Virus record (IMG/VR): IMGVR_UViG_3300017917_001778
Span: 1-24,085 of that record
DNA: 24,085 nt
Strand: one strand, 5' to 3'
From: a virus
The notes beneath the pieces were generated by a model, which saw nothing but the letters and a program-made list of their open reading frames with translations, had not been told where the DNA came from and ran no database searches. This document shows positions 8,809-24,085 of the stretch, one piece after another. The position numbers were made by a program, and so were the translations under genes. Numbering within the stretch: the first letter of the stretch is position 1; each line of letters starts with the position of its first letter.

Positions 8809-10649
8809 CAAATCACCGCCGTCGCATACAAGTTTCTTACTTTGGGGGAATAATTATTTGTTGTGTCCCCATACATAACTATCTTTACTTGAAATTGATT
8901 AAAATTATTAAAGGTGGTAACCACCCCGCCTACGTTAGCTGAGTAAGCTAGATTAGCAGAATCAGTTTCTAATATTCTATAAGTTTCAGGAATAAATGTG
9001 GTGCTATCAGTACCTACACTAATTTTGGTAGGAGACACAATAGAGAAATTCACACCCGAAGTACTTTTAGAATTAGCAGCACTATATAATGGCATCAAAA
9101 CCCAATTTCTTTTTTCTATAGATGATTCTGGAGAATTATCAAAACTACTTTTCACTCTACAAAAAACATCTATGTCTGTATTATTTTTTCTATTAACTTC
9201 TAATTTTACTTCTATTCCTGTAGAATCGAAATCTGGATTTAGTGTAACTACTTTACTAAGATATTTTGCCTTACCGAATCCGTTAGAATATACCACTTCA
9301 GAATTTCTAATGATGCTTTGATCGTTTAAAGAATCTATCTCATCCTTCATTGTGACCAAATTAAGTGTAGAAAGATTTATAACTGGACTAATATTTTTAT
9401 CTTTATTGGTCATCAATACTTTAACTTTAGCATCACCTGTTTCATTTAAAGTTCTAAGTGTATTCAGTCTTTTTGCTGAATTATAAGGAATAAGTTCATA
9501 TGCTACTGTAGATCCAAGGGTATCTTTTGATTGTAGTTCTGTAGATATTACAGTATCATCACCAAATAATCTCGATCCAACAAATATTTTAGCCACACCG
9601 TAATTAAATCTAGCCGGATTAATATTTGTAGTTTGTTTTACAAATGATTTAGTACCGGTTTGAAAAACTGCTTTATTAATCGTAAATAGTAAACTTGCGC
9701 CAGTATCCTCAGTTTGTGCACCACTATTAGTCATTTTATAAAGTTTACCAACATTAGGACTTTTACTTGATAAAGTATTAGCTCCTGTCACAGTTGTCAA
9801 TTCTCCAACTCTGCTAACTAAAATTGTATAGTTTTCGTCAGGAGTTTTTACGCATAACGCATATTCTTTACCAGGAAATAAGTATATAGGATTACTAAAT
9901 TTAAATTTTGTAGAAGTTAAATTACCAGTAGCATCGGTATTCACATTAATACTTGAAGGTCCAAGAAAGGCTAATGATCCATCTACAATTCTGTTTGACG
10001 GCAATCCATCAACAACTTCTCTTAATTCTAACTTGACATCGCCCCCTATAGTCGAGGACTTTTGATAAAAATATATTTCTGCAGAAGTAGCGAAAATACC
10101 ATTTTTGTAGATGGTACCATCTACGTAAAAGGTTTGTGCTAAAGGTGAAACTGACGATGATAAAAAGTTACTGTTATTAGCATTAGTAGAAGATGTTGCA
10201 GTATTAGTAAGACCATTATCTCTTACGTTAGTTGTTTGATTTTGATCCACAACAATAGGAGTTCTAGAAGGTTCACCTGGCCCAATAATTTTCATAGGCA
10301 ATGTGGCAATGATGATCTTAAAGTCTGGATCACCCTCTTGTTCTTGAAATACTCGTTGCCCTGTTCTGGCTTGTATAGAATAACTATTAGGTTTGACAGG
10401 TGTTCTAACTACAAAATTGATATTAACTGTACCTGGTTTAGTTAAAATATCCAATCCGAGGGTATTGACTATGATGAGTTGCCCGGATAATCTACCAGTA
10501 CTTGGATCAGTAACCAATCCATCACCGAAACTTTTTCCTGTCTGGGCCGCGCAATTAGTAAAATCTACTCCATTTATTTCAATAGAAACATCCTGCCCAT
10601 AATAATCTGTAGAAATTACAAATTCTTGTTGAATGACTGGTAAACCCAT
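8808..10649 (-). CDS. Virion structural protein, tail-fibre/baseplate-associated (613 residues)
   Basis: Probably a baseplate- or fibre-associated structural protein, in the position T4 uses for genes 10-12. Residues 1-125 form an N-terminal part (MGLPVIQQEFVISTDYYGQDV...) that may dock to the baseplate. A Thr/Asn/Ser-rich linker (about 130-165) follows. Residues 168-335 form a beta-rich domain beginning PLAQTFYVDG, with KLELREVVDGLPSNRIV, FKFSNPIYLFPGKEYALCV and GKLYKMTNSG. This layout recurs in large structural proteins of T4-like cyanophages and resembles a jelly-roll carbohydrate-binding fold by eye. The C-terminal 270 residues are also beta-rich, with VVTLNPDFDSTGIEVKLEV and a final YSPKVRNLYATAVI. 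The ATG overlaps the previous stop (TAATG), and the stop overlaps the next gene by one base. Confidence 0.8.
   Translation of the reverse strand: MGLPVIQQEFVISTDYYGQDVSIEINGVDFTNCAAQTGKSFGDGLVTDPSTGRLSGQLIIVNTLGLDILTKPGTVNINFVVRTPVKPNSYSIQARTGQRVFQEQEGDPDFKIIIATLPMKIIGPGEPSRTPIVVDQNQTTNVRDNGLTNTATSSTNANNSNFLSSSVSPLAQTFYVDGTIYKNGIFATSAEIYFYQKSSTIGGDVKLELREVVDGLPSNRIVDGSLAFLGPSSINVNTDATGNLTSTKFKFSNPIYLFPGKEYALCVKTPDENYTILVSRVGELTTVTGANTLSSKSPNVGKLYKMTNSGAQTEDTGASLLFTINKAVFQTGTKSFVKQTTNINPARFNYGVAKIFVGSRLFGDDTVISTELQSKDTLGSTVAYELIPYNSAKRLNTLRTLNETGDAKVKVLMTNKDKNISPVINLSTLNLVTMKDEIDSLNDQSIIRNSEVVYSNGFGKAKYLSKVVTLNPDFDSTGIEVKLEVNRKNNTDIDVFCRVKSSFDNSPESSIEKRNWVLMPLYSAANSKSTSGVNFSIVSPTKISVGTDSTTFIPETYRILETDSANLAYSANVGGVVTTFNNFNQFQVKIVMYGDTTNNYSPKVRNLYATAVI
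10107..10124. other. Perfect 18-bp palindrome inside the 613-residue gene
   Basis: GTAGATGGTACCATCTAC is its own reverse complement with no central spacer. It encodes V-D-G-T-I-Y at residues 176-181. The flanks do not extend the symmetry, and no T-run follows on the coding strand. By rough chance estimate fewer than one 18-bp palindrome is expected here. It could bind a dimeric protein, or be coincidental. Confidence 0.35.
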
Positions 10650-11290
10650 TATCCGCCCCCGCCGAAGTCCATTAAGGTATAAACTATATTCTTATTTGCT
10701 GCAAATGCCAATTCTAAAGAATCTTCTACCACATCTATTCCAGAATTAGTTACAAACGAATTAGAAGTAAAACTATAATCTGTAAGGTAATTATTTGCTA
10801 AGGCATAACCCAAACCTGTTGTAATATTTAGATTAGAATAAGTATTAGAATTAGCTATCAAACTAGTACTGTAATTAGACAAATACGATGTAGTAATAGT
10901 ATTTTGTGAAAATGCATTTGCAAATCTGAAATCTTTTTCCGGCACTAAAACCTTATAGGCATTTGTTACAAATACGTTCGCGCCTACATTACTAGGCATC
11001 GTATTAAATGATTCTAAAACGCCTGAATCGTAAAATCCTGAGCCTTTATTTTGAATGAACGTGTTAGACCAATTCGAAGAAGTTTCTATAGAATCAATAT
11101 TTAAAGTTTTAATAGTATCAGCTGTTAGAATTCTAGAAACATCAGTTATAGCATTACTTAACCAATTGTATGTTACATTACCGTTAGCTGCGTTATTTTG
11201 TTTTTCTCTTAATACTTTCCCAACAAGATCTACATATGCTTGTTGCGTGGCAGTAGTTTGTATTGCTTCTATTGTTTGTAGAATTGACAT
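10649..11290 (-). CDS. Hypothetical virion protein (213 residues)
   Basis: I do not recognise a family with an assigned role. The N-terminus (about 1-35) is a polar helix rich in Gln/Ala/Thr (IEAIQTTATQQAYVDLVGKVLREKQ, residues 6-30). Residues 55-70 contain TADTIKTLNIDSIE, reminiscent of fibre-shaft repeats. The rest is rich in Asn, Ser, Thr and Tyr, typical of virion beta structures, and the chain ends in DFGGGG. The gene begins one base after the stop of the 1335-residue protein and overlaps the next gene as TAATG. It therefore lies between two large structural genes and is probably a tail-fibre or baseplate component. Confidence 0.7.
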   Translation of the reverse strand: MSILQTIEAIQTTATQQAYVDLVGKVLREKQNNAANGNVTYNWLSNAITDVSRILTADTIKTLNIDSIETSSNWSNTFIQNKGSGFYDSGVLESFNTMPSNVGANVFVTNAYKVLVPEKDFRFANAFSQNTITTSYLSNYSTSLIANSNTYSNLNITTGLGYALANNYLTDYSFTSNSFVTNSGIDVVEDSLELAFAANKNIVYTLMDFGGGG

Positions 11291-18222: not shown

Positions 18223-20083
18223 CTACAGCTACCATATTAACAGATAACCCTGCTTTTGTATTATTGGCTGAATTAGATGTACTGTCATCCAATAAGATAA
18301 TTTGATTAAAGTTTACAGTAACATCGAGATATTCATTTTGTGGTTTGATCATTATTCTTAGATCAGAGCTATCATCATAGTATCCATATACTTTTAAATC
18401 TGGTATAACTATTTCACCTGTACCATAATTTATAGTTCCGTAATTACTATTTACAACGGTTTCTGTAGTTGGATCTATTAATCTTACTATACCTGTTCCT
18501 GTATAGTTTGGTGTAGTATCATTAGGGATATCTCTTAAAACTACTGGATAAATTGTATTTGTGTCGTTATAAGCAAATCTAGTGGATTCAAGACTCCCGG
18601 GCATAATACCTATATAGAATTTAACACTATCATTACCTGTAAGTAAATTACTTGCATTTAACACGGGAGATAATCGTTTTTGAACCTTTAGCCCTATTAG
18701 ATTACCTAATATTGCTTGATTGGTATTATCTATTAGTTTGGATAATTTAGAATAAAGAAAATCTTTGTCGAATTTTTTTAGATCTGTATTGAAATAAGTT
18801 TCTACTGTATCTATAACTTGTGATTTTAATTCATCCACCGTCATTGTCAATATTTTATAATTATATTTGACTGATATATCTAAATTAACATAGAAATAAT
18901 CTGGATCAACATATTCTGGAGCTATAGCTAAAACTTTTTTGGTTTTAAGAAAATTAGTTATCTCATCCTGTACCTTACTAGTAATTACAAAGCCTGATGC
19001 TGGGCTTAGAGCTATCATTACCCTTCCATATCTTTTAGGAATATTATCCTCGCCTCCCCAAACAGCTACAGAATCAATAAGACCTGGATTGTAAGAGTCA
19101 ATTAAAACTTTATAATCATTAAAATTAACTGCTCTATTATGTGCTGATCTAAACTTTGGAGCGTTAAATTTAATTTCTGTGATTGTTTCTTTGTCCGCAC
19201 CATAGGAAGAATTTTGCGTGACTGTAATACCAGTAATAGCCCCTCCGCCTATTAATGATGATGAACTAAATATTTGGGAAATTTTTCCTGATACGTTAGT
19301 GGATGTTCCTCTACTTATTAAATACTGAACTTTGATCAAATTTCCAGAAATAAGTTTTTTACCTAAGATACCATCACCAAATACTAGTTGATAGTATCCT
19401 CCAGGATTTTCTTCAAGAAAATATACTTTGGAAGTACCATCAATTCCCAGTGCTTCATCTGCTTCTGTATAAGTATCAATAGTAACATCAGTATTTGAAT
19501 TTTGAACTGTAACTAATAATGTAGAAGTGTCTACATCTAAATTTGGTATTTCATATTTTTCAGCTGGCCCAGGATTATTAACTCTGAATACAAATTCTAA
19601 CGGAACACCTTCAATAATTTCTACATCTGTAAAGTTATATTGTCCATTAACTCTTTGTATAGTTTTGGCCTCCAGATTAACAAATGTTCTTGAAACATTG
19701 TTTATCGTAGTGGTGAATGACGTGTATCTATCTAATGTCAAAGATGTAGGAGTTCCTACTGGAGAAGTTACTGAAAAACTAATTTTGGCTCTCGATCCTC
19801 TAACCGATCTAGAGGTATATCCTAAATGTTTAGCTATTGATACTGCTGACGATCTTTTAACTGCAGAATCTATAAACATTTCATTAATAAGCATGTTTGA
19901 TAGATAAGCATTATAATGAGTATTATAAGCTAATAAATCTAAAAGAACAGAAAGACCAGAACCGTCTAGATCGTAGTCAGTAAACACTAGATCACCATTA
20001 CTATCACGATATTGACTTATAAAAGTTTTTAGATTTTGCTTTATATCATCAAAATCTAATTCTGAAACTTTAAGATTTGCCAT
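18215..20083 (-). CDS. gp6: Baseplate wedge subunit (gp6-like, J family)
   Basis: This is the central wedge subunit, forming the ring that holds the baseplate together and changes shape on contraction. Its 622 residues compare with 660 in T4. The N-terminus is diagnostic: LDFDDIKQNLKTFISQY (9-25), GSGLSVLLDLLAYNTHYNAY (42-61) and NEMFIDSAVKRSSAVSIAKHLGYTSRSVRGSRAK around 67-100. The middle has VYFLEENPGGYYQLVFGDGILGKKL, and a baseplate_J-like core follows with FNAPKFRSAHNRAVNFNDYKVLI and VAVWGGEDN...RYGRVMIALSP. The C-terminal segment has GTGIVRLIDPTTETVVNSNYG...TGEIVI. It overlaps gp25 by one base (TAATG) and the next gene by 8 bp. Confidence 0.96.
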   Translation of the reverse strand: MANLKVSELDFDDIKQNLKTFISQYRDSNGDLVFTDYDLDGSGLSVLLDLLAYNTHYNAYLSNMLINEMFIDSAVKRSSAVSIAKHLGYTSRSVRGSRAKISFSVTSPVGTPTSLTLDRYTSFTTTINNVSRTFVNLEAKTIQRVNGQYNFTDVEIIEGVPLEFVFRVNNPGPAEKYEIPNLDVDTSTLLVTVQNSNTDVTIDTYTEADEALGIDGTSKVYFLEENPGGYYQLVFGDGILGKKLISGNLIKVQYLISRGTSTNVSGKISQIFSSSSLIGGGAITGITVTQNSSYGADKETITEIKFNAPKFRSAHNRAVNFNDYKVLIDSYNPGLIDSVAVWGGEDNIPKRYGRVMIALSPASGFVITSKVQDEITNFLKTKKVLAIAPEYVDPDYFYVNLDISVKYNYKILTMTVDELKSQVIDTVETYFNTDLKKFDKDFLYSKLSKLIDNTNQAILGNLIGLKVQKRLSPVLNASNLLTGNDSVKFYIGIMPGSLESTRFAYNDTNTIYPVVLRDIPNDTTPNYTGTGIVRLIDPTTETVVNSNYGTINYGTGEIVIPDLKVYGYYDDSSDLRIMIKPQNEYLDVTVNFNQIILLDDSTSNSANNTKAGLSVNMVAVDA

Positions 20084-20484
20084 TATCTTAATCTACCTAA
20101 TGTTTGAGTTATTGTGATAGGCGTATCCGTATTCTTAGGCGCGAAAGTAATATCGACCATTATTTCGTTAGTGTCTTGGTTTTCTATTACATCTACAGAA
20201 ATCATTCTTACTCTTGGCTCAAATCTTTCTATACTCATCATTATAGATTTTTCTATTGTATTTCTTAGAATAGGCGAATAATTCTCAAACATCATATTAG
20301 TGACCTGTGTTCCTATCTCGGGATGAAAAGGTCTCTCATAGTTTTTAGTAAGTATAAGATTCTTAACCGATGCTTTTATAGCTTCCAAATTAAATTTTCT
20401 ATTTACATCACTAGTGTAAGGGTGTGCCTGAAATAGAAGATCTAGATCAGAAAATTGTTTTTGATTTCGGTTTATAGTAGCCAT
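20083..20484 (-). CDS. gp25: Baseplate wedge subunit (gp25-like)
   Basis: This is the small wedge protein that nucleates sheath assembly. It has 133 residues, nearly identical in length to T4 gp25 (132). It has the GPW/gp25 family fold pattern: FSDLDLLFQAHPYT at 11-24, IKASVKNLILTKNYERPFHPEIGT split over 36-59 (the RPFHPEIG stretch is the signature), then NMMFENYSP, helix NTIEKSIMMSIERFEPRV, and strands to the end. Despite an old annotation of the family as lysozyme-like, no peptidoglycan-cleaving role is established for gp25. The gene starts 11 bp after gp5 with the same AT-rich junction as gp8 and is followed by gp6 with one base of overlap. Confidence 0.96.
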   Translation of the reverse strand: MATINRNQKQFSDLDLLFQAHPYTSDVNRKFNLEAIKASVKNLILTKNYERPFHPEIGTQVTNMMFENYSPILRNTIEKSIMMSIERFEPRVRMISVDVIENQDTNEIMVDITFAPKNTDTPITITQTLGRLR

Positions 20485-20498
20485 TTAAATATTTATTA
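20482..20498 (-). promoter_or_regulatory. AT-rich junction motif before gp25 (late-promoter-like)
   Basis: The minus strand reads TAATAAATATTTAAATG, from the gp5 stop to the gp25 start, differing from the gp8 junction by one base. AATAAATA fits the NATAAATA cyanophage late-promoter pattern. In both places the first TAA is the upstream stop, and the 11-bp gap begins with a second TAA in frame. Confidence 0.4.
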
Positions 20499-23117
20499 TG
20501 TGAAGTAATTCACAAATTGATTTCTAGCAGTCATTTGATTATTAACCATCGTACCAGTTTTTACTGGGCTAGTTGCTCCAGATTTATCGAAAGAATAATG
20601 TATCCAAGAAATAACTATAGTTCCTCGTCTTTCAAATTCAAGTAATAGTTGCTTATGAGGGATATTGTCTCTTATCCATTTTGCTATAGTAAAATACTGA
20701 GGATAGGAGTACGCGGGAAATTGAAGATCTGCCGCCATGCCTCTGCCATGATCTCCCTCAGGCCTTGGTTCATTTTTGCCGGTTTTCTTATTATAAAATA
20801 ATTTTCCGTCTTCTCTAAATCCAGATGTAACTACTACATCTGGATACTTTTTCATTATTAATTCTATCTGTTCTGCTAAAAATTTTAAGTTACACGCAAT
20901 ATCTGCTCTACTAAGTCCAAGTTGTGCTTTTAAAGGATCCACAGTAATGAAATTTCCTAGTACAAAATTCTTAGATATTTTAAGAGATTTTGGAAAATTA
21001 TTTTGTTTATCAAATGCCGCAAATTCAGAACAAGTAGTAGCAATTTTTGCACTACTCACCGCTGTAGGAGTAATACCTTTATTAGCATCTACTCCTGTAG
21101 TATTGTATGTCCCATCTTCTATAGTACCATCATTTAATTTATCTGTTCGTAGTTGTTGTGCTGCAGCAGTTTTGGCAGAGTCTGGATCATCATGCAAAAA
21201 AGTATTTTGATTAGTTTCAACACTATTCTTGGGAGGTTTGATTACTATAGAAGGAGTAATTTTATCGGGAGTATCCATTGCGGGGATTTTTACTTCCTGA
21301 AGTTTTGTTGCCCCCATCTTAGTTTTAATAACTGTAGCATCCATTTTTAATTCAAATCCACCATCAATACTTGTGGATTGTGTACCTTGCATAACTAGTT
21401 TTGAACTAGATTTCAATGTTAAATTATTTTCCTTAGAAAAAAGATTTAATTCTTTTCCTTGAATTTTCAATTGTTCATCTGATACTATAGTAAAACCTTT
21501 CTTTGCAGATATATTAACTGTTTCGCCTATAAGATTTAGTTTGCCTGCTGACTTAATGCTTACATCATTATTACCAACGATAGTAGTTGTACCTACTACT
21601 TGGATGTCCGCATTATTTTTAACAAATATTTTAGAAGAACCATCCACGGTTACATTCTGCGCACCTCTAATGTAAACATAATCATTGTTATCTATAACTT
21701 CATATCTATCACCTATAGTTTTACGAACACTTGTTCCATTGACATCTATTTCTATAAAAGTGCCAGATTTATGATAGATATTAATTCTTTCTCCACTTGG
21801 AGTATTATCAAATTCTAATAGATGCCCAGCTTCTGTTTCTAGAACTTGATTATATGGATATACGCCACCAAAAGGACTTGGGGGCTGATTCCATACTTGT
21901 GTAGAATTAGCTAAACCCACATCTGTTGCTCTAGTATTATCTTTCAAAGATATTGAAGGATGATCTTTTACACCTCTAGCTAATTTGTTAGTATCTGGTT
22001 GCCCTGCATAGTCTGCTTTCGGATAAACAGCATTGGGGTCCTTAAATCCTTGAAGGCTAAGCAATTGAGAATTTTTGTCTACATTATAATCAAATATATC
22101 TGTTATTAATGAATCTACAGGTAATGCTGTACTACCACCAATTGCATTACTACCTAATGCGTAGTAATCTTGTGTTGTTTTTCTACCATCTGATGCTGTT
22201 AAGCCTTTAGTTGCTAATTGTAATGCCCCGCCAATACCTCCGAGATGAGCGGCACTTAGTAGTCCGGCAATTTTTTCAGGTGGATCGGTGTTACTTATAG
22301 CATCTTTTTTCTTTAAAAAATTATAACTATACTCAAGATTTTTGAACATTATCAATTCTTGGACTGTTCCATTCTTATAAAAATCTTCTAAAGATTTTAA
22401 ACCATTTTTGTTTAACCATAAAGAATTGTTATTTAAATTACTATTATCTTTATTTTTAGAATCACCTAAACCAAAATGTTTCACGTAACCAAGAGTTGCT
22501 AAAGCTTCATAACCAAATTGATATTTGCCAACATAACCTAATGAATTTTTTGTTCTATAGTTTTGTTTGCCACCAGGGACAGATGATGATTCAGATTCAC
22601 CAATCTTATCCATTAAACTTTTAATCTGAGATACATTTAAGGGAGGTAAATTATTTGTAATGAAATCTTTGGTTGCTGGGTCAGTATTAAGAGAACTCGA
22701 AATTATTATTGGTTCACCTGATCCATCGGTAACAGTACTACCGTCACTTGATGTAACATAATTATTGTTTTGTTTATTAACTCTTTTAGCTTTTTCAAAT
22801 GGATCAGATTTATTTTTGCCGGCAAGTGTTCCCATCATAATAGGTTGTTGCATATCATTACCGTCTAAAAACCAACCAACAACCCAGGATCCTTCTAAAA
22901 CTCCAACTGGCGCTGTGCCTTTACCTGATATAGCCGCCGAAGTGATTGGTTGTAAAGGCATTGCCCAAGGTAAATCTTTTGTTGGTAGTATATTTTTATC
23001 TTCTGTATGCAAACCAAAGATTCTTACCTTACATCTTCCAAGTTCTTCAGGGTCATTTCTATCTTCTACTACTCCGACCCACCAACCTAAATTATTGGAT
23101 TGTTTATTAGTAAACAT
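20496..23117 (-). CDS. gp5: Baseplate central spike (gp5-like) with transglycosylase-like and M15 peptidase domains
   Basis: This is the central spike of the tail hub, acting on the envelope at injection. It has 873 residues against 575 in T4. Residues 8-100 are the OB-fold (NLGWWVGVVEDRNDPEELGRCKVRIFG split over 9-35, ...GTLAGK). About 160-330 resembles a tail transglycosylase: IGESESSS (172-179, E174 or E176 a candidate acid) and GYVGKYQFGYEALATLGY (194-211). Residues 425-605 are the beta-helix, with VgrG/gp5-like repeats such as SIKSAGKLNLIGETVNISA. Residues 735-870 form an M15/VanY-type zinc peptidase with SGFRED (765-770), GDHGRGMAAD (788-797, H790 and D797) and SWIHYSF (837-843, H840). 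The muralytic domain sits between OB-fold and helix, exactly as T4's lysozyme does. The start overlaps the hub gene by 11 bp. Confidence 0.93.
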   Translation of the reverse strand: MFTNKQSNNLGWWVGVVEDRNDPEELGRCKVRIFGLHTEDKNILPTKDLPWAMPLQPITSAAISGKGTAPVGVLEGSWVVGWFLDGNDMQQPIMMGTLAGKNKSDPFEKAKRVNKQNNNYVTSSDGSTVTDGSGEPIIISSSLNTDPATKDFITNNLPPLNVSQIKSLMDKIGESESSSVPGGKQNYRTKNSLGYVGKYQFGYEALATLGYVKHFGLGDSKNKDNSNLNNNSLWLNKNGLKSLEDFYKNGTVQELIMFKNLEYSYNFLKKKDAISNTDPPEKIAGLLSAAHLGGIGGALQLATKGLTASDGRKTTQDYYALGSNAIGGSTALPVDSLITDIFDYNVDKNSQLLSLQGFKDPNAVYPKADYAGQPDTNKLARGVKDHPSISLKDNTRATDVGLANSTQVWNQPPSPFGGVYPYNQVLETEAGHLLEFDNTPSGERINIYHKSGTFIEIDVNGTSVRKTIGDRYEVIDNNDYVYIRGAQNVTVDGSSKIFVKNNADIQVVGTTTIVGNNDVSIKSAGKLNLIGETVNISAKKGFTIVSDEQLKIQGKELNLFSKENNLTLKSSSKLVMQGTQSTSIDGGFELKMDATVIKTKMGATKLQEVKIPAMDTPDKITPSIVIKPPKNSVETNQNTFLHDDPDSAKTAAAQQLRTDKLNDGTIEDGTYNTTGVDANKGITPTAVSSAKIATTCSEFAAFDKQNNFPKSLKISKNFVLGNFITVDPLKAQLGLSRADIACNLKFLAEQIELIMKKYPDVVVTSGFREDGKLFYNKKTGKNEPRPEGDHGRGMAADLQFPAYSYPQYFTIAKWIRDNIPHKQLLLEFERRGTIVISWIHYSFDKSGATSPVKTGTMVNNQMTARNQFVNYFT

Positions 23118-24085
23118 CTGCTATAGCTGTAAAAGAATCTTTAGTAACTTCCATAATCATACTATGCCTTGGTAAAGCACTAATTTTATGATGAATTTTA
23201 GTTATAAGATAATTTCCAGATGACATTGGATCAAAATTTTCTGCTGATCTATCACTGTCGTCAAGTGGTCCTGTATCTGGTAAATCTATATACATTAGAG
23301 AACCGACTTCTACATCTGTTCTTCCAGGAATGACTATTTCCATATTGTAATTATTCAAGTTTAATAGATTAGATAATCTGTTGCCGTAAATTTCCGACAC
23401 TTTTTCTGTAAAATTATCTTCAACATCAGTATGTAATCCCGGATGCTTAAAATTTATTTTAAAATTATTTGATGGATTAACTACTGCACCGTTGACAAAT
23501 AAAGGTGCTGATTTTACATCTTTGTTACCTGCACTGTGAGCATATTCAGAAAATTGTTCTGGATATGAATAATCCACATACTCATAATCCTTATCCATAA
23601 TATTTAAGTCTATAACTCTAGTACCGTAGTAACCACTAGTAATGTTTTCTAGATTATTAGTTGATGTTAGCATTCTAACATCTTGAATTTGAAATAATTT
23701 TTTGTTGGCATCAGTAGTTTCAAAAACACCTGGAGGAAAATATCTGTATGCTCCTATTGATACATTTATACCAAGATTAAATATTGTTTCTATTGGTGTA
23801 AAATAGAAAATCTTATTTCCCTCAAAGAACATGTAATTACATGCTTTTCCACTTTTTGGTATTGCTTTAGATGCTAACCACTGTATACATTTTATAGGAG
23901 ACCAACCTGGGCTAACGAATTTAACACTATTTTCAGTTTCGTCAATTATTGCTAATTGACTTTTAGGCATATTATCTATTTTTTCACCATTAGGTGAAAT
24001 ATATCTTGTATTAGTAAAATAATTTTCAAAAATGTCTCCTACTATATCTGAGACTTTACCTTCAAAGGCCTGTCTGATAGGTAAT
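23107..24085 (-). CDS. gp27: Baseplate hub subunit (gp27-like), 5' end outside window
   Basis: Probably the hub ring protein that holds the gp5 spike. The frame is open from the right edge, giving about 325 residues. The Met at 23970 is internal: 38 further in-frame codons precede it (including SDIVGDIFENYF) without a stop. Later segments are SPGWSPIKCIQWLASKAIP, a strand pair NYMFFEGNKIFYFTPIETIF, and GYYGTRVIDLNIMDKDYEYVDYSYPEQF. Close to the end are NLNNYNMEIVIPGRTDVEVGSLMYIDLP and the strand GNYLITKIHHKISALPRHSMIMEVTKDSF, patterns shared with gp27-type hub beta-barrels. T4 gp27 has 391 residues, so little is probably missing. Overlap with gp5 by 11 bp fits the known partnership of the two proteins. 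Confidence 0.75.
   Translation of the reverse strand, partial: LPIRQAFEGKVSDIVGDIFENYFTNTRYISPNGEKIDNMPKSQLAIIDETENSVKFVSPGWSPIKCIQWLASKAIPKSGKACNYMFFEGNKIFYFTPIETIFNLGINVSIGAYRYFPPGVFETTDANKKLFQIQDVRMLTSTNNLENITSGYYGTRVIDLNIMDKDYEYVDYSYPEQFSEYAHSAGNKDVKSAPLFVNGAVVNPSNNFKINFKHPGLHTDVEDNFTEKVSEIYGNRLSNLLNLNNYNMEIVIPGRTDVEVGSLMYIDLPDTGPLDDSDRSAENFDPMSSGNYLITKIHHKISALPRHSMIMEVTKDSFTAIADVY

Follow-up and report, generated by a model that had tools for sequence, protein, structure and literature searches.

The window analysed here, the whole 24,085-base IMG/VR virus record IMGVR_UViG_3300017917_001778, encodes a T4-type gp5 spike in which two predicted wall-degrading domains share one chain. The open reading frame (ORF) lies at 20496-23117 on the minus strand, as do its domains and the two neighbouring genes located below, and its 873 residues comprise, in order, an OB fold, a lytic-transglycosylase-like domain, a GFxDP linker, a beta-helix, a variable linker of about 95 residues, and an M15-type domain. 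Building on the domain order, residue conservation, predicted folds, and recurrence in relatives, all of which come from this analysis, we consider it quite probable that the gene specifies a T4-type trimeric baseplate spike carrying two peptidoglycan hydrolase modules per chain that act at entry. The usual picture of phage entry enzymes is a single lysozyme on the T4 needle; here a predicted peptidase and a predicted glycan cutter are joined in one polypeptide, and this two-cutter layout recurs in environmental T4-like phages.

That the protein is a gp5-like spike, as the initial annotation proposed, is confirmed by three lines of evidence. PF06714 matches the OB fold at residues 39-108 (E 1.4e-22, above the Pfam cut-off), phrog_430 matches the protein with an E-value of 2.5e-93, and T4 gp5 (PDB 1k28) aligns with residues 7-106 and 398-514, the latter corresponding to the start of the T4 needle. 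The OB fold occupies residues 1-110 (22788-23117), and a motif scan places the GFxDPN...YP...DTNKLARG linker at residues 357-385 (21963-22049). The beta-helix region spans residues 400-610 or so (21288-21920), with its C-terminal limit set by eye; PF22178 (gp5C beta-helix) scores 16.6 bits on the window against a cut-off of 30.9, and our own TRI profile also picks the region up in relatives L001-L004. The linker that follows (residues ~611-705; 21003-21287) is the fastest-evolving part of the protein, with the highest nonsynonymous divergence (dN) among five segments in all five comparisons.

A lytic-transglycosylase-like middle domain

The initial annotation placed a transglycosylase-like domain between the OB fold and the beta-helix, and this assignment (residues ~150-335; 22113-22670) is borne out by family matches, structure prediction, and fold comparison. 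The domain matches phrog_27932 ('baseplate hub subunit and tail lysozyme') with an E-value of 3.7e-24, and 25 of 58 family members, the window not among them, match PF06737 (transglycosylase-like) with an E-value no higher than 0.1 (best 3e-5). An AlphaFold (AF2) model of the domain has a mean predicted local distance difference test score (pLDDT) of 91.9. Compared by VIA-align, this predicted model has a lysozyme-like fold, aligning 133 residues with the soluble lytic transglycosylase Cj0843 (8gfq) at Z 10.0 and a root-mean-square deviation (rmsd) of 3.1. Foldseek returned no match at E up to 0.001; its best PDB match was the phiKZ lytic transglycosylase gp144, a weak one (E 0.062), followed largely by other lytic transglycosylases. 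Taken together, the relatives' family matches and the modelled fold support assignment of the middle domain to the lytic transglycosylases of the lysozyme superfamily. PF00959, the T4-type lysozyme family, has no Pfam match in the window, and a missing match does not by itself exclude such a lysozyme; judged by the sequence matches above, the domain belongs with another family.

The putative catalytic residue is E176 (22590-22592), in the motif GESESSS that starts at residue 173. It is kept in 76 of 81 non-identical homologous domains, the window counted. The GKYQFG motif noted initially is indeed present, at residues 197-202 (22512-22529). We think it improbable that the middle domain is a lysozyme-superfamily member that has decayed or binds carbohydrate, rather than a working transglycosylase. 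This alternative would account for the absence of a Pfam match in the window and of the glutamate in five of the 81 domains, but the window and most relatives still have E176, GKYQFG, and H291, with the caveat that GKYQFG, unlike E176, formed part of our transglycosylase search pattern and was partly selected for. The fold matches listed are, moreover, mostly lytic transglycosylases and lysozymes. The domains without the conserved glutamate are those of the L161, L166, L118, and L110 gp5 proteins and of L162:1676-2797; the first four of these proteins retain an intact M15 site.

A C-terminal M15-type domain

The M15-type zinc peptidase domain predicted after the helix (residues ~706-873; 20499-21002) is likewise corroborated. 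A query of residues 640-873 matches phrog_894 (endolysin) with an E-value of 3.6e-7, and 37 of 50 family members, the window again not among them, match PF08291 (Peptidase_M15_3) with an E-value no higher than 0.1 (best 1.7e-9). The AF2 model has a pLDDT of 94.4 and adopts an M15 fold: the zinc DD-peptidase 1LBU is its best match both in Foldseek (E 7.4e-4) and in VIA-align (Z 12.5, rmsd 3.0, 127 residues aligned), where the next best Z is 6.8 and Ply500 (4.4), MepA (4.0-4.2), and VanY (3.9) score lower. Because the domain is nearer to 1LBU than to Ply500, MepA, or VanY, the modelled fold points to cleavage at D-Ala cross-links or termini. The relatives' matches and the structural comparison thus support an M15-type peptidase. 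Sequence searches of the PDB with our family profiles yielded nothing significant (A1 only RpfE, E 0.77; A2 only hedgehog proteins, from E 0.15; A3 four matches from E 0.87, which we ascribe to chance; A4 none).

The three putative zinc ligands named initially are all in place, namely H790 (20748-20750), D797 (20727-20729), and H840 (20598-20600), and they form the H-x6-D pattern with a downstream histidine that binds zinc in the M15 family. To these we add a conserved putative general base, E827 (20637-20639), in the LLLEF motif that starts at residue 824. The resulting H-D-E-H set is intact in 81 of 87 non-identical M15 domains, the window counted; E827 formed part of the M15 search pattern, and the other three residues did not.

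It could be argued that the M15 domain serves chiefly for structure or binding, leaving the transglycosylase as the sole working enzyme. Hedgehog proteins, known mostly as signals, are among its fold relatives, and in six of the 87 domains the three zinc ligands were lost together while the domain stayed in place on the spike. Nevertheless, retention of the whole set in the other 81 makes this an unlikely account, as does the low ratio of nonsynonymous to synonymous divergence (dN/dS) of the window's M15 domain, which is 0.056, 0.043, 0.054, and 0.103 against L001-L004, though 0.302 against L005. These ratios are rough, with synonymous divergence approaching saturation in several comparisons and becoming infinite for two L003 segments.

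Loss of active sites

Thirty-six proteins, including that of the window, contain both domains. Both sites are kept in 26 of these, only the zinc site is lost in six, only the glutamate in four, and both in none. We considered whether the lack of double losses is a sign that one cutter is always needed, and rejected the idea: by our own arithmetic about 0.7 such proteins would be expected among 36, and the difference is not significant. The decay cases do suggest that one cutter can be enough, and they are natural mutants for asking which of the two matters. The H-D-E-H set is replaced by FNET in L006 and L036, YNEG in L046 and L047, and LEQR in L044 and L045. An insert widens the stretch before the former first zinc ligand in the gp5 C-termini of L006, L036, and L047, hinting at a structural role for these M15 domains.

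Distribution of the architecture

We surveyed the best 80 of at least 453 relatives and the best 80 of at least 528, so the counts that follow are not frequencies in nature. Architectures were assigned across 173 loci with our own profiles, built from as few as two sequences (PAAR) to at most 19, and ORFs contained in longer ones were dropped, reducing 164 to 154. The window spike stands outside this set. The order OB fold, transglycosylase, helix, M15 was found in 34 of the 154 ORFs, nearly all from environmental contigs, and another 30 have OB fold, helix, and M15 without the transglycosylase-like middle domain, some with a different enzyme in its place. Helix-M15 pieces (16), OB-transglycosylase pieces (11), and PAAR-M15 fusions (2) were also seen, as were eight spike-like ORFs with the same transglycosylase domain C-terminal to the helix region, including L051:3450-5522, L083:2778-5516, and L094:3477-5564; the remainder fall into other or partial classes. 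Thus, of the initial interpretation, both domain identities and the placement of M15 after the helix stand, whereas the implied rarity of that placement does not, given 34 other non-identical ORFs with the same order and the domains described after the needle in VgrG and PAAR proteins (PMC6899460).

The window protein is present at near full length on five other contigs, with 90, 85, 84, 73, and 55% identity in the best segment, and we therefore rejected an assembly chimera as unlikely. In a phage collection it is partly matched by 2339 records, and its M15 domain by 55. Thirty-five of these 55 are spike or PAAR proteins by annotation or by our own reading, with kinship as the sole basis for five that are annotated as hypothetical. 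Most of the remaining 20 are either M15 proteins that stand alone or records we left unplaced. The middle domain matches 30 phage records by tblastn, 28 of which are phages of Rhizobium, Agrobacterium, Sinorhizobium, or Ochrobactrum.

Some spikes are encoded by two genes. In L061, L070, L073, L080, and L088, of which L070 and L073 are near-copies, the first gene ends after the transglycosylase and an ATG lies shortly past its stop codon, and split spikes also occur in Melnitz-3 and RHph_I1_18. The spike frame L162:1676-4216 has a stop after the middle domain; its ORF order suggested another split spike, which we did not count since it has no clear second start. In Cr30, Melnitz-3, BUCT-ZZ01, pf16, and RHph_I1_18, the gene with the gp5 M15 domain is labelled as baseplate hub, tail lysozyme, or hypothetical.

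M15 domains on PAAR proteins

M15 domains also occur on PAAR proteins. In Milchi, Vibrio phage 1.244.A, and PpuM-Aura, the fusion lies between the gp5-like gene and the wedge genes, and Vibrio phage 207E48.1 has, in the same gene setting, a close homolog of the 1.244.A protein annotated as hypothetical. Pseudomonas phage Paride, known for infection of dormant cells, encodes a PAAR protein with a C-terminal M15 domain (L178:2922-3944) among metabolic genes, annotated as moron/host takeover. In a tree of 38 hand-chosen M15 domains, the five PAAR-borne domains form one clade (support 100/100) within a group that includes those of pf16 and Melnitz-3 gp5 (96/97). Six stand-alone phage M15 proteins form a clade of their own (100/95), and the fork between them and the PAAR/gp5 side is weak (76/68). 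The M15 domain of RHph_I1_18 gp5 has a very long branch and falls beside the stand-alone proteins. If the tree is rooted with the stand-alone proteins as outgroup, the M15 domain would have moved from gp5 to PAAR once, a shift that parallels the modularity reported for spikes of the type VI secretion system (T6SS). Because PAAR proteins are tip proteins, this clade fits a placement of the gp5 M15 domain near the needle tip. A spike-like M15 domain is also encoded in a 294-residue stop-to-stop frame (L186:3159-4041) of an uncultured 735-kb phage record that carries no annotation.

The stand-alone relatives, two of them annotated as endolysin and one beside a holin, raise the alternative that the spike's M15 domain is cleaved off by a protease, or works in lysis late in infection, instead of acting at entry. 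The fast evolution of the post-helix linker and the cleavage of T4 gp5 during maturation could be counted in its favour. We nonetheless regard it as a doubtful explanation: the stand-alone proteins form their own supported clade, 25 of 26 spike M15 domains lie outside the weak group around them, and the fusion is present in 34 non-identical ORFs with the full order.

A separate PAAR match was found in 10 of 24 records searched. Small PAAR genes above the Pfam cut-off lie near a gp5 with intact M15 in L024, L025, L030, L040 (~2 kb away), and Cr30; one near Melnitz-3 gp5, also with intact M15, was above the cut-off in one search and below it in another, and BUCT-ZZ01 has its PAAR gene elsewhere in the record. 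Searches of the pf16 and RHph_I1_18 records, and of the window and records L003, L004, and L005 (all fragments), found no PAAR gene. We rejected a general replacement of the PAAR cap by M15, as several phages with an intact gp5 M15 domain also encode PAAR.

Other two-enzyme spikes and known systems

Several cultured phages pair an M15 domain with a different central enzyme. Caulobacter phage Cr30 gp5 resembles the window spike in having an OB fold, a central glycan hydrolase, a helix, and, by our own profiles, a C-terminal M15 domain with H-D-E-H; it differs in that its central domain is Phage_lysozyme2 (PF18013, E 5.5e-29) and a small PAAR gene follows directly. The BUCT-ZZ01 gp5 combines GH19 (E 1.7e-8) with a C-terminal M15 domain, and L164 gp5 has a sub-threshold GH19 match (E 0.0021). 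In Methylophilales phage Melnitz-3 (L008:2962-6005), the split gp5 has an M15 domain and, in the OB protein, a VanY-like match just under the cut-off (E 1.1e-4); this contrasts with the statement in the Melnitz description that lysin-like genes are absent besides gp67 (PMC9004378). For pf16 gp5, no Pfam enzyme match was found between the OB fold and the helix. Ochrobactrum phage OC gp5 (L190:1462-3888) represents a separate way to a two-cutter spike, in which Peptidase_M15_3 (5.7e-13) and Phage_lysozyme2 (1.2e-20) lie side by side ahead of the linker and no Pfam enzyme match follows the helix. Given the different central enzymes in Cr30, BUCT-ZZ01, Melnitz-3, and OC, two-cutter T4-like spikes are, as far as family matches indicate, assembled from different parts.

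The enzymes also differ in where they are inserted, a contrast that the initial annotation had overlooked. T4 gp5 has one wall-cutting domain, between the OB fold and the helix. In Aeromonas phage 25 gp5, the T4-type Phage_lysozyme domain (PF00959) follows the GFxDP linker, and there is no enzyme match after the helix, where the window has M15; in the window, BUCT-ZZ01, L164, L093, and OC, the enzyme precedes the linker. Judging from these domain positions, T4-like gp5s therefore have two insertion points and not a simple swap. The motif scan found no GFxDP in Cr30 and pf16. Homologs of the middle domain are also present in the gp5 of Pootjesviridae: Sinorhizobium phage phiM9 and Agrobacterium phage OLIVR5 have the same GKYQFG-type domain shortly before the helix, although their N-terminal region is long and different, and our OB and M15 profiles find nothing in them.

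Hubs with two hydrolases, those of A-1(L) and diffocin, are already known, as are evolved VgrGs. The hub gp15 of Anabaena phage A-1(L), also a contractile phage, has endoglucanase and peptidase domains that are active on cells (PMC10966104), on a hub rather than, as predicted for the window, on the spike. Diffocin CD1368 likewise combines a lytic transglycosylase and an endopeptidase in one baseplate protein, but its transglycosylase is compared with MltA, its endopeptidase is of another family, and the protein is a gp27-like hub directed at a Gram-positive target (PMC10996793). T6SS VgrG and PAAR proteins are known to carry C-terminal domains beyond the needle. In Pseudomonas aeruginosa VgrG2b, a zinc peptidase is fused after the needle, with homologs also on PAAR proteins; unlike M15, it has an HEXXH gluzincin fold, and it is an effector with an immunity protein in a secretion system, not a phage (PMC6899460). 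M15-domain proteins occur at Neisseria VgrG loci as well (PMC10210955). The gp5 version, with its recurrence, may be new: an M15 domain on a T4-like gp5 is not named in the titles and abstract openings listed by our searches of openly licensed PMC papers, which is weak evidence of novelty.

Proposed mechanism

In the two-hydrolase spike that we favour, the transglycosylase between the OB collar and the needle would cut glycan strands, and the zinc M15A-type peptidase, tethered after the needle by the ~95-residue and presumably flexible linker, would cut stem-peptide bonds, probably at D-Ala cross-links or termini. In T4, the needle is believed to pierce the outer membrane upon contraction (PMC7600766). 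If the window spike is a trimer by analogy with T4, sheath contraction would drive a needle with three copies of each enzyme into the periplasm, where the wall would face three transglycosylases close to the collar and, past the helix, three tethered peptidases. Catalysis at both sites upon entry would then loosen the peptidoglycan mesh for passage of the tail tube. Several phages with a gp5 M15 domain also have a PAAR cap protein of their own, so the extreme tip need not be formed by the peptidase.

Several observations weigh against this reading. Neither domain of the window, taken alone, matches a Pfam enzyme family; the matches to PF06737 and PF08291 are those of relatives. The transglycosylase fold match is moderate, and helical folds can reach a Z of 10 without kinship. 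None of the 2339 phage-collection records matches more than 80% of the window protein in one place. In addition to the separate PAAR caps, the M15 domain may also play a structural role, because six such domains have lost all three zinc ligands yet remain on the spike.

More broadly, we lean slightly toward the view that in T4-like phages the far side of the needle is an exchangeable enzyme mount, as in the T6SS. The M15 arm would have become attached behind the gp5 helix, been combined with unrelated central hydrolases in different lineages, and passed once to a PAAR cap; either cutter could decay with the other retained, and the spike would be a two-enzyme drill with three peptidase arms round its tip.

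Gene neighbourhood

The window carries a T4-type cluster of terminase, sheath stabiliser, neck, fibre, and baseplate genes, and this baseplate synteny also speaks for the spike reading. Two wedge genes directly follow the spike gene, the first of which (20083-20484) is gp25-like by size and place and matches phrog_261 ('baseplate wedge subunit', E 2.3e-39). Upstream lies a tail protein gene cut by the record end (23107-24084; phrog_350, E 5.3e-50). The neighbours that gave matches fall into phage families for baseplate, neck, fibre, and terminase, and T6SS or immunity genes were not searched for. Within the structural cluster, a 213-residue ORF at 10649-11290 has no PHROG match with an E-value of 0.001 or below. 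For the gp6-like protein, the best 15 of 2357 matching records are Pelagibacter phages, Methylophilales phages Melnitz, and cyanophages, at 34-38% identity.

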